This document shows, in pieces, positions 43,566-47,941 of a stretch of DNA of 64,000 nucleotides. Where the stretch lies: contig NZ_KB908215.1 in assembly GCF_000382365.1 (NCBI RefSeq), positions 434,001 to 498,000 of the forward strand, written 5' to 3'. The DNA comes from Pannonibacter phragmitetus DSM 14782 (GTDB taxonomy: Bacteria; Pseudomonadota; Alphaproteobacteria; Rhizobiales; Stappiaceae). A model generated the notes under the pieces. The model searched no databases. It saw only the letters and a program-made list of their open reading frames with translations, and had not been told where the DNA came from. Each line of letters opens with the position of its first letter. Position 1 is the first letter of the stretch. The translations under genes were made by a program, and so were the position numbers.

Positions 43566-46547
43566 TCAGGGCTGCCGCACGCCAACGGCCACACCGGTCG
43601 CCATCCATGCGCCATCAATGGCGGAAAAGCTTCCAGCGACGCCGTCAAAATTGCTGTTCGGCCCCTGCACCAAAGAGGCATTGAAAGTGCCGCCCATCGT
43701 ACCGCTATCAAAAATCGCTCCGCTGAAGAGGTTCTGATCGGCGAAAGGGTTGGGCTCGGAGATGTTGGCCCCGAAGGTCCGGCCATCAAAGTTGCTTATG
43801 GTCGCGGTGCCGGTACGTGTGTCAAAGTCTACGCTCATGTTGAAATCACCGGCGGCAAGATATTGCCCGCCTCCGTTGACCACACTGCCAACCGCATGGC
43901 CGACATAGCTCGCACTGCCGCTGCTGGGCAGGTCATTCGGCCCGAAAATACGTCCGGCAGCCCAGGTTCCAAGATGGACCTGTGCCTGCTCGTCTGGAGC
44001 AGGCGAAGGGTTATCGATCACAAAGTGCGTGCCCCAGTATCCCCATTCCAGGAAGGCGCAGGTGCACTTGGTTGTCACACCGGCAAAAATGGCACTGTCC
44101 GCGCCATCCACCAGCGTGTTGGGAATGAAGTAGCTGGTGGCGTCGGCATCTTTGCTGGGGCCGCTTTCACCGCGCAGGCTATTGCCAAAACTGTCATTGG
44201 TCTCAGCCGCCGCATAGCGGTCATTGTCGATGAATACCGAGGCGCGCTCGCTTTCGGGGGCTGAAGCGCTATTGCCAAAGGACACCTTCATCCAGGGCAC
44301 GTTGCCACCGCCCGTGTAGTTTGCATTCTCAAGCTCGAAAGATGCCGAGACGGACCGGCTGTCCACATCGAACTTGACCGAACTGCCGAAGCTGCCAACC
44401 GTGGCATAAGGCGTAACCACAAGATTTCCGCCACTGTTCGTCTGCACCATGCCTGCGGCAAAGCCGGACATGTTGCGCGTGCTTCCCAACAAGGTGGAAC
44501 CCGGCACTGTGGAGGATAGCCCGGCAATATGCGTCGTGGCGCTGTAATGGTCCCTCAAATGGCTGGACGGCGGCTGCACCACATAGCTGTCAGCATTCTG
44601 TGCCGGGCTGACATTGCTGCTGAGGACGAAGTTCTCCGCATTGCTGCCGAAGGCATAGGTGCCATCCGCCCCTTCCAGAGACCCGATCTTGCCGGAGAAA
44701 CTGCCGGTGGCATCATGAGTGACGGACTTGTATCCGCCACGCCGCGCACCCGACAGGGCAAACTCACCCGAGCCGTCATCCTTGATGGCACCAAGGAAAA
44801 GGGAAATGGCTGACTGCTGCGTCGAGGACAGCCCCTGAATGGAGAAGGATGCGGCCAGCGCAAGCGGCGGCTTATCGTCCAGATCTGCGCCACCCTCCAG
44901 AACCAGAAGGCCCGAGTTGGCAACGCCATCGAGGAACGAGGTGCCCAGATCCGCTGCTACGAGCGGATTGAGGAAGAGAGCGCCCGTATTGACAGGGATG
45001 AGACTGCCATCGGAGTTCTCTGTGCCCAGCGAGAGGAGCTGCTGCAGGTCCGCCGTCAGCGTGTAGGTCCGCAGGCGGGACTGGTTCATCACTTCGAAGG
45101 ATCCCGGCTCTCCGCCAAATGCAAGGATTGCATCGGAGAAGTCGCTCTCAAAGACCGGCATATCCCCTGCAAGCAGAGCATTCTGGTAGAGCAGTGCGAT
45201 GAAGCCGTTGCTCCCCCGGTAGAAGATACCGCGCCCGTTCGCTTCAATGTCACCATCTTCCGAAGCATCAACCGTCAGCCAGGACGGAACACCGGACTGG
45301 CTGAACTGCCCCATATGGATGCCCTTTTCCGTCAGCACAGACTGGAAATAGGACAGGCCCGAAGCTGAGGGGATGCCGACCGTAATCGTTTGCCCATCGA
45401 TTTCACTGGTCAGGAAAGCATCGCCATCAGCCGAGGAATAGGCGCCAGAGGAGCCCCCCGAGCCAGGCAGCGTGACCGTAAACTCTTCGTCGATGGAATC
45501 CATGGTCCGTCCAAGAATGCCCTGACGGCCAGGATTGAACAGAATGCCTGCAAGCCCAGGCAACTCGAGACCACTGCCCCCGCTCAGGGCACGCAATGTG
45601 ACCGTCTGGGGCTCAGGCTCAGGCTCAGGCTCAGGCTCAGGCTCCGGTTGAGGCTGCGGCTCTGGTTGAGGCTGCGGCTGTGGCTGCGGCTGCGGCTGAG
45701 GTTGAGCGGTCTGCTCCGGACGCGGATCAGGCGTCTTCTCGATGGTCTTTTCAACTTCCGCCAGAGCCGTCGCCACGACAACCTCCGGCTTCGGTGGCGG
45801 CAAGGTGTTGATGACAGCGAGGTTCGAGTTGACCGAAGTAATGCCGCTTTGGGCCACGATCTCATTGGTGGGCGGGCGCGGTGCGCCGCCGTTCTGGCCG
45901 GGCCGGCTGGTCAGGGACTGTTGCAGGGACCCGAGATCTGCCTGGCTGGTCGGGCGTATGTCAGGCTGGCTGCTCCCGCCTCCCCCCACAACCATGGTGT
46001 AACCGGGTTCATAGATCCGCTGTTCGGTGCCGTTCGGGCCGGTGAACGTCAGTTCCTTGCCAAAAACGAGAGAGAATGTGCCGCCATCCTCACGCACTTC
46101 CAGATTGGCAATACCACCGCGGATGCCGATGGTGCCGACCGGCGTGCGGACATTCACCCCGCCCTTGTTTTTCGAGAGTTTCCCGCCAACAAATCTGGCC
46201 ACGCCCTTGCCCATGCTGGCCACCAGTTTGCCAGTGCCAGCTTCCGGATCAAAGACGAACTCGTCGATCACCAGATCCGAATTGGCACCGACGGTAAAGG
46301 TCGATCCATCGACAAACAGCACCTGCACCAGTCCGGAACCGCCCGTCTTGATGCGCTCCTTGTGGTAGATGTTGTTGCCAAGCATGATGGTGCGCATGCC
46401 AGCACCGGGCGCCGTTCCTTGCGCCTGCGGATTGACTGCCGTCGCAACGCCCACCTCGGTCGATGCCATCGCGGTGGTGGCGAGCAGAGCAGGCAGAAAA
46501 CTGGCAGCAACCGCAAGAGAGCGTGCGACGCGGAGGTGGCTCATCAT
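43566..46547 (-). CDS. Large secreted FecR-domain protein with TbpB-like C-terminal barrel
   Basis: A 993-residue exported protein. A signal peptide without lipobox (MSHLRVARSLAVAASF, cleaved near AMA-S) is followed by a FecR domain at about residues 40-140 (IYHKERIKTGGSGLVQVLF, split as IYHKERIKTGG and SGLVQVLF; VRTPVGTIGIRGG). A Pro/Gln then Pro/Glu repeat linker lies at about 275-315, then a long Gly/Ser/Asp-rich region. The last 115 residues resemble a TbpB-type eight-stranded barrel: VDFDTRTGTATISNFDG, FSGAIF, MGGTFNASLVQGPNS, GVAGSFSA, ATGVAVG. Such barrels mark cargo of Slam translocons, and the gene upstream encodes one. I infer surface-exposed or released cargo. Ligand unknown. Confidence 0.75.
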   Translation of the reverse strand: MMSHLRVARSLAVAASFLPALLATTAMASTEVGVATAVNPQAQGTAPGAGMRTIMLGNNIYHKERIKTGGSGLVQVLFVDGSTFTVGANSDLVIDEFVFDPEAGTGKLVASMGKGVARFVGGKLSKNKGGVNVRTPVGTIGIRGGIANLEVREDGGTFSLVFGKELTFTGPNGTEQRIYEPGYTMVVGGGGSSQPDIRPTSQADLGSLQQSLTSRPGQNGGAPRPPTNEIVAQSGITSVNSNLAVINTLPPPKPEVVVATALAEVEKTIEKTPDPRPEQTAQPQPQPQPQPQPQPEPQPQPEPEPEPEPEPEPQTVTLRALSGGSGLELPGLAGILFNPGRQGILGRTMDSIDEEFTVTLPGSGGSSGAYSSADGDAFLTSEIDGQTITVGIPSASGLSYFQSVLTEKGIHMGQFSQSGVPSWLTVDASEDGDIEANGRGIFYRGSNGFIALLYQNALLAGDMPVFESDFSDAILAFGGEPGSFEVMNQSRLRTYTLTADLQQLLSLGTENSDGSLIPVNTGALFLNPLVAADLGTSFLDGVANSGLLVLEGGADLDDKPPLALAASFSIQGLSSTQQSAISLFLGAIKDDGSGEFALSGARRGGYKSVTHDATGSFSGKIGSLEGADGTYAFGSNAENFVLSSNVSPAQNADSYVVQPPSSHLRDHYSATTHIAGLSSTVPGSTLLGSTRNMSGFAAGMVQTNSGGNLVVTPYATVGSFGSSVKFDVDSRSVSASFELENANYTGGGNVPWMKVSFGNSASAPESERASVFIDNDRYAAAETNDSFGNSLRGESGPSKDADATSYFIPNTLVDGADSAIFAGVTTKCTCAFLEWGYWGTHFVIDNPSPAPDEQAQVHLGTWAAGRIFGPNDLPSSGSASYVGHAVGSVVNGGGQYLAAGDFNMSVDFDTRTGTATISNFDGRTFGANISEPNPFADQNLFSGAIFDSGTMGGTFNASLVQGPNSNFDGVAGSFSAIDGAWMATGVAVGVRQP
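45609..45710 (-). repeat. Hexanucleotide repeat encoding the Pro-Glu/Pro-Gln linker
   Basis: Tandem GGCTCA units followed by related GGCTGC/GGTTGA units, all six bases long, encode alternating Pro-Glu and Pro-Gln. Slippage would change linker length by two residues per unit without a frameshift. Confidence 0.85.

Positions 46548-47941: not shown

Follow-up and report, generated by a model that had tools for sequence, protein, structure and literature searches.

A Slam-type channel gene paired with a putative lipid-free cargo carrying a FecR-type module and a TbpB-like barrel in Pannonibacter phragmitetus

The 64,000-nucleotide stretch of Pannonibacter phragmitetus DSM 14782 (Alphaproteobacteria, Hyphomicrobiales, Stappiaceae) analyzed here (contig NZ_KB908215.1, positions 434,001 to 498,000; hereafter the window) carries on its minus strand two adjacent genes, one for a predicted outer-membrane channel of the Slam, or type XI secretion system (T11SS), superfamily and one for its putative cargo, which combines an N-terminal FecR-type module, a proline-rich linker and a TbpB-like C-terminal part. 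The channel open reading frame (ORF) covers 46559-47980(-) and encodes 473 residues; translation likely starts at 47941 (Met14 of the ORF), which, as judged by eye, fits a signal peptide better than 47980. The cargo ORF, 43566-46547(-), encodes 993 residues from its ATG, or 998 residues from the upstream TTG given in the ORF list, and lies downstream of the channel, with 11 nt between the channel TGA and the cargo ATG. A first-pass annotation had described this layout of a tetratricopeptide repeat (TPR) plus β-barrel gene 11 bp upstream of a secreted protein, together with a FecR domain, a PE/PQ linker and a C-terminal motif in the cargo. The ORFs confirm the layout, and all three cargo elements are present: the FecR domain (PF04773) scores 33.1 bits against a cut-off of 24 at residues 65-158, the PQ/PE repeats lie at about residues 270-315, and the motif reads as written. 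We computed the families and architecture of the gene pair, its conservation and linkage, and the similarity of the FecR-type module to retention modules.

Profile comparison supports the assignment of the channel to the Slam/T11SS superfamily, with a putative role in transport. Comparison of a profile of 33 relatives with 17 SlipAM proteins of other Alphaproteobacteria, picked from 30 SlipAM loci, gave an hhalign probability of 100 and an E-value of 6.3e-45, spanning both the TPR domain and the barrel. One reference (L088) is itself paired with a FecR protein and two family members (L068 and L069) are distant; removal of all three leaves an E-value of 1.9e-35. The barrel alone matches SlipAM at 3e-27 with the full sets and at 2.6e-20 after these removals, compared to 1.7e-3 and 2.5e-3 for reversed-profile controls. 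Moreover, a model built from 16 SlipAM proteins (without L088) recovers 33/33 family members in a search limited to those 33, the worst at 3.7e-16 and the window protein at 6.4e-42. With Pfam models at E≤1, SlipAM (PF04575) matches 11/33 members (best 4.1e-5) and TPR_Slam 13/33 (best 0.0025). Two FecR-paired relatives (L267 and L270) exceed the SlipAM cut-off, with 52.3 and 26.7 bits; the window channel itself reaches 12.1 bits, under the curated cut-off of 22. Its AlphaFold2 model (50 aligned sequences; predicted local distance difference test, pLDDT, 87) combines six helices in the TPR domain with 14 barrel strands and a pair of four-residue strands. Slam barrels have 14 strands as well. The Slam/DUF560 relationship proposed in the first-pass annotation thus holds by family profile and fold, yet not by the Pfam score of the window protein, and the SlipAM comparison distinguishes the channel from an ordinary porin without DUF560 similarity.

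The AlphaFold2 model of the cargo (57 sequences; pLDDT 83.9, predicted template modeling score 0.69) comprises a β-rich N-terminal domain (residues 31-199), a mostly low-confidence stretch (219-293), a β-rich body and eight terminal strands (878-991). Structural similarity search against the PDB using Foldseek gave 48 matches at E≤1e-3, of which the first 47 are TbpB, fHbp, HpuA, NHBA and haemophilins, with the cell-surface-signalling (CSS) domain of PupR at rank 48 (E 5.5e-4); the alignments took whole multi-domain chains, with low TM-scores and high root-mean-square deviations. FHBP_C (PF08794, cut-off 28.1) reaches 28.5-28.7 bits with the C-terminal piece, compared to 25.1 with the whole cargo. 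For TbpB_B_D (PF01298), the profile suggested in the first-pass annotation, the outcome is divided: the C-terminal piece of the window cargo stays below the cut-off (16.7-16.9 bits against 26), and 27/41 family C-termini, window included, match at E≤1, as do 32/41 for FHBP_C and 33/41 for NCBIfam slam_lipo. A profile of these 41 C-termini, out of 57 available, matches 24 TbpB-type barrels drawn from 30 loci with an E-value of 8.1e-9 and a score of 56.3, compared to 17.5 for the top of 100 column permutations; one reference (L201) comes from a FecR-bearing locus, and without it the E-value is 1.2e-8. Against PDB sequences the profile has 23 matches at E≤1, 19 of them named fHbp or Gna2132 (NHBA) and the other four labelled only lipoprotein or Lipoprot_C protein, which we take to be fHbp too. 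Model, fold search and profile thus agree with the earlier view of the C-terminus as an eight-stranded TbpB/fHbp-type barrel. Residues 540-830, compared with TbpB barrels as a candidate N-lobe barrel, reach a score of 28.2 over 24 columns only.

The only cysteines of the cargo are residues 828 and 830. As none precedes residue 828, there is no lipobox, as had been stated before, and the cargo cannot be a lipoprotein; a lipobox-like motif occurs in 2/57 cargo sequences. The outer part and the C-terminal barrel resemble TbpB, fHbp, NHBA, HpuA and the haemophilins in fold; compared to these proteins, the window cargo lacks a lipobox and has an N-terminal FecR module, and no TonB receptor is present among the four scanned neighbours of the pair (a 5'-nucleotidase, Maf, a FAD-binding protein and a metallo-β-lactamase protein). 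Ahead of the barrel stands a CxC or CxxC followed by FLEWGYWG, in which the two cysteines and the two WG pairs do not vary among the 41 C-termini; this motif is a possible disulfide or ligand site.

Sequence profiles place the FecR module nearer to the retention modules of LapA-type adhesins than to anti-sigma FecR proteins. The module set holds 57 sequences (the window and 56 of 64 FecR-plus-barrel ORFs), all of which match Pfam FecR (57/57). Their profile was compared with 14 retention modules above the NCBIfam cut-off, from 20 loci, and with 18 anti-sigma FecR proteins, also from 20 loci and trimmed to the FecR region. It matches the former with a score of 66.0 (E 2.7e-10, 72 columns; top of 100 permutations 21.2) and the latter with 26.4 (E 1.3e-3; top permutation 19.0), two scores that are only roughly comparable because the reference sets differ in diversity. 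The retention-module reference has no match to the barrel and channel profiles (scores 6.9-12.8). The NCBIfam model retention_LapA (NF033682) matches 55/57 modules at E≤1 (best 5.1e-7), and the modules also match the leptospiral NCBIfam models of Lsa33, a "surface adhesin" (56/57 at E≤1, best 9e-12), and LipL45. Against PDB sequences the single match at E≤1 is the antifreeze protein 5ix9 (E 5.6e-6), which we take to correspond to the anchoring region at the N-terminus of MpAFP, a Marinomonas adhesin. According to PMC13090378, the membrane-anchoring domain was first described in a Marinomonas primoryensis adhesin.

The cargo thus shares with the LapA/MpAFP adhesins of the type I secretion system (T1SS) and with a type Vb adhesin, presumably CdrA, a module similar over ~72 residues and a flexible segment behind it; it differs in its outer-membrane channel, its signal peptide, its missing LapG motif and its size of ~100 kDa, which is not giant. 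Peptidase_C93 (LapG-like protease) occurs in 40/41 genomes searched and is therefore uninformative. Outside the window, a second Peptidase_C93 match with an in-frame stop lies at G000:C1:414176-414619, and this second copy is interrupted by stops in each of the five Pannonibacter genomes searched. Cargo residues 22-156 also match the phage family of unknown function phrog_37870 (E 1.7e-14).

Between positions corresponding to window residues 213 and 314, a low-complexity segment of 65-144 residues (101 in the window) is found in 57/57 cargos measured, rich in P, G, T, V and S and with almost no aromatics. This count omits 8/64 FecR-plus-barrel ORFs, among them a pair of ~1570 aa and five with 557-592 aa. 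The two long cargos (L143 and L167, both Aquibium), much longer than the others, were also excluded from the alignments.

Table 1. Features of the gene pair and its upstream neighbour (positions in the window)
Feature	Position	Strand	Basis and remarks
Slam-type (T11SS) outer-membrane channel gene	46559..47941	-	Profile comparison and model; ORF may start at 47980
Probable channel signal peptide	47828..47941	-	By eye; model residues 1-52 have pLDDT <50
Channel TPR domain of six helices, presumably periplasmic; residues 56-162	47495..47815	-	Domain scan and model
Channel 14-stranded β-barrel, residues 165-473, and two extra four-residue strands at 189-198	46562..47488	-	Profile comparison and model
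Cargo gene, 993 aa	43566..46547	-	ORF, domain scan, model and fold search
Cargo signal peptide, without cysteine	46464..46547	-	By eye
Cargo FecR-type module, residues 29-215; ~72 residues resemble LapA-type retention modules	45903..46463	-	Domain and profile comparison
Pro/Gln/Glu-rich linker, residues 216-313	45609..45902	-	Model and alignment; mostly pLDDT <50 up to residue 293
β-rich body	44052..45608	-	Model and fold search; Foldseek aligns whole TbpB chains, second barrel not proven
Conserved CxC and FLEWGYWG motif ahead of the barrel	44031..44066	-	Alignment
C-terminal barrel, eight strands (878-991) after two long strands (833-865)	43575..44051	-	Model, profiles and fold search
5'-nucleotidase gene upstream of the channel	48293..49906	-	Domain scan of neighbours

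Conservation and linkage of the gene pair support its reading as translocon and cargo. Of 332 related places obtained in a scan of 84,980 genomes, the best 80 formed the locus set, in which FecR and barrel were sought with models from the window's own relatives. A FecR-plus-barrel protein is encoded in 62 loci, FecR without a barrel in the same ORF in 14, and no FecR in four. Among the 14, a contig end truncates L137 and L155, and L120 encodes the barrel as a separate ORF, so that 11 remain; of the four without FecR, L121 and L144 are located at contig ends, L179 is truncated upstream and L180 has more than 3 kb of flank on either side. In 61/62 FecR-plus-barrel loci (61/80 overall), the distance from the channel stop to the cargo start is between -44 and +122 nt, and in L104 a FecR-only gene lies between channel and cargo. 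The hosts include Roseibium, Stappia, Aureimonas, Mesorhizobium, Rhizobium, Shinella, Pleomorphomonas and Devosia; within the genus, another Pannonibacter genome (G004) has a channel 88% identical to that of the window.

Across 101 related genomes, 28 have both channel and barrel cargo, 10 have the channel without the cargo, none has the cargo without the channel and 63 have neither (Fisher p 6.8e-17, ignoring relatedness). These counts (38 genomes with a channel, 28 with a barrel cargo) leave out seven weaker channel hits and a weak channel-less cargo hit in G062 (E 9.3e-4), and count as having both G018, in which a stop accompanies a break of both the channel and the cargo into two pieces. 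All ten channel-only genomes fall in the window's family; eight have the order FecR-only protein, 5'-nucleotidase, channel, one (G049) is cut by a contig end and one (G051) has the channel followed by a FecR-only gene, so the channel can persist without a barrel cargo. Within the locus set the 5'-nucleotidase is confined to Stappiaceae and close relatives; it is therefore treated as accessory and is probably not a core part of the unit. Five loci (L107, L108, L110, L117 and L123) show the order FecR-only protein, 5'-nucleotidase, channel, FecR-barrel cargo, and L114, L115, L122, L126-L128 and L139 have the same set minus the barrel cargo. In L147 (10.2-17.2 kb) and L150 (8.0-14.0 kb), one channel is followed by three consecutive FecR proteins, two with barrels (~560 and ~990 aa) and one without.

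FecR-first cargos, as predicted from sequence, occur also beside canonical Slams outside Alphaproteobacteria. A FecR protein stands beside the channel in 5/30 SlipAM loci, which reach just ~1.5 kb to each side, and in 2/30 TbpB_B_D loci. Eight regions (L267-L274) were re-examined with longer flanks. FecR-first proteins of 570-1152 aa lie near Slam-type channels in L267-L270 and, outside the class, in L272 and L273, whereas L271 has a 279-aa FecR protein without a barrel and L274 no FecR protein. In L273 a single protein exceeds the cut-offs of FecR (51.7 bits) and of TbpB_B_D (30.3 bits) and directly adjoins a 60-bit SlipAM channel; the Pfam barrel match is under the cut-off in L267, L270 and L272, and there is none in L268 and L269. 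L272 (0.2-9.3 kb) holds two Slam-like channels and three FecR proteins, one of which has a FecR domain and a sub-threshold TbpB-type barrel.

By homology, the two genes form a predicted T11SS pair. They resemble the type XI systems Slam1/Slam2, NilB and HrpB (DUF560/SlipAM) in the TPR plus 14-strand barrel, the adjoining cargo gene and a cargo that ends in an eight-stranded TbpB/fHbp barrel, and differ from them in the sub-cut-off Pfam score of the channel and in an unlipidated cargo with an N-terminal FecR module and a long Pro-rich linker. In PMC9090332, Slam is described as moving unfolded cargo and is proposed to recognize a C-terminal motif, and the lipid anchor is proposed to flip after the full cargo length has passed. 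Retention modules, as described in PMC13090378 and PMC6890996, remain periplasmic and keep adhesins in TolC-like (T1SS) or type Vb channels. The FecR module sits at the position of the lipid in canonical Slam cargos, and the simplest model is thus that it acts as a stopper, leaving the linker in the pore. We infer translocation, its direction, retention and the placement of the linker as follows. Both proteins would be carried across the inner membrane by Sec, and the TPR-barrel protein would insert in the outer membrane, where it would recognize the TbpB/fHbp-type barrel of the cargo. The cargo would pass outward unfolded, with its C-terminal part first, while the N-terminal FecR-type module would fold in the periplasm; too large to pass once folded, it would act as a stopper. 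The Pro-rich linker would remain in the pore and the TbpB-like part would fold outside. That the pair is such a lipid-free type XI surface-display unit is, on balance, probable, if only just. The fuller claim, in which the FecR-type retention module anchors a cargo threaded through its own Slam channel, giving a stable outer-membrane-spanning complex and a lipid-free type XI subclass, is nearly balanced and leans slightly towards the doubtful.

Several observations weigh against this stopper model. The retention-module similarity spans just ~72 residues, the window module scores 19.2 bits on NF033682, far below the cut-off of 50, and the 50 best Foldseek matches listed for the cargo include PupR and no retention module. 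The LapG motif [TPA]AAG is absent behind the module in 55/57 cargos, window included (present in 2/57), so any anchoring would be permanent or otherwise released. In the five cargos of 557-592 aa the segment after the module is, by eye, shorter and partly non-repetitive, and a long linker is thus perhaps not obligatory. An extra FecR-only protein is found in 9/62 FecR-plus-barrel loci (L153 among them looks like a split gene); together with the 11/80 loci in which a FecR-only protein is the sole FecR, this shows that the module is useful without a threaded cargo. Finally, soluble T11SS cargo can be exported completely, according to PMC12282271.

The last point bears on the view of the first-pass annotation, that the Slam-type channel exports the whole cargo, FecR module included, for display or release, with FecR as a binding domain outside. 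According to PMC9090332 and PMC12282271, Slam cargos are translocated in full and many of the predicted T11SS cargos are soluble, the Lsa33 matches would suit a FecR module outside the cell, and short cargos without a clear long linker exist; however, a fully exported cargo would keep no anchor, the similarity to retention modules exceeds that to anti-sigma FecR, and the linker of the 57 measured cargos would be left unexplained. We regard full export as a serious contender that is nonetheless rather unlikely. The claim of that annotation that a FecR domain on the surface would be a new role has to be reduced, since the Lsa33 and LipL45 matches indicate that a surface protein with a FecR-like domain would not be wholly new. 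A different proposal takes the channel for a TPR-barrel polysaccharide export porin of the BcsC, PelB or PgaA type, with a neighbour that is not its cargo. Foldseek ranks BcsC, BcsC and PelBC first to third for the channel, and SlipAM barrels themselves weakly match PgaA (E 3.8e-5); no Slam-named PDB entry is among the 50 best matches listed, and the missing Slam match therefore carries no information. In small control sets, the barrel matches nine BcsC sequences at 1.4e-3 and four PgaA at 0.1 (1.2e-3 with the TPR part included), so that SlipAM is preferred by many orders of magnitude, and strong cargo without a channel occurs in 0/101 genomes. These profile controls rule against a polysaccharide porin, which we consider highly improbable.

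Alternatively, the FecR module could serve for signalling or docking in the periplasm and report on either the channel or an outer ligand, in the manner of FecR/PupR cell-surface signalling. The Pfam FecR domain common to all 57 modules and the PupR CSS domain among the Foldseek matches are the likenesses to these anti-sigma regulators. By contrast, the module directly follows the signal peptide, the domain scan gives no DUF4880 match at E≤1 in the window cargo, and the four neighbours scanned are those listed above. The anti-sigma profile match is also the weak one of the two given above, and the anti-sigma candidate was rejected on this comparison. We consider a signalling or docking role unlikely, and the earlier derivation of the FecR domain from iron signalling is not supported. 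A CHASE2/cAMP link of FecR proteins, suggested in a Sinorhizobium paper (PMC5498481), came up by eye from one distant locus (L069) and was dropped, as no sign of it is seen beside the window genes, though not all neighbours were scanned.

Returning to the stopper model, a cargo architecture of FecR, linker and TbpB-like barrel seems undescribed. No literature linking FecR with T11SS is among the titles and abstract openings found; FecR is absent from the main text of the 2025 T11SS cargo survey PMC12282271 and from the matches listed for PMC8406197 (supplements excluded in both cases), and the portion of PMC8277102 covered has nothing on retention modules. It is plausible that an N-terminal module in place of the lipid is a new way of anchoring. 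Most T11SS channels lack a known or predicted cargo, according to PMC12282271, and the present pair adds a conserved channel-cargo pair in Hyphomicrobiales, with a concrete proposal for how a lipid-free Slam cargo could remain cell-bound. If the proposal is true, retention modules would serve three unrelated outer-membrane exporters (TolC-type, type Vb and Slam), and, in large secreted proteins, many N-terminal "FecR" domains would function to stop export and not to signal. If the stopper model holds, the complex would moreover represent a stalled Slam translocation intermediate, useful for working out the mechanism of Slam.

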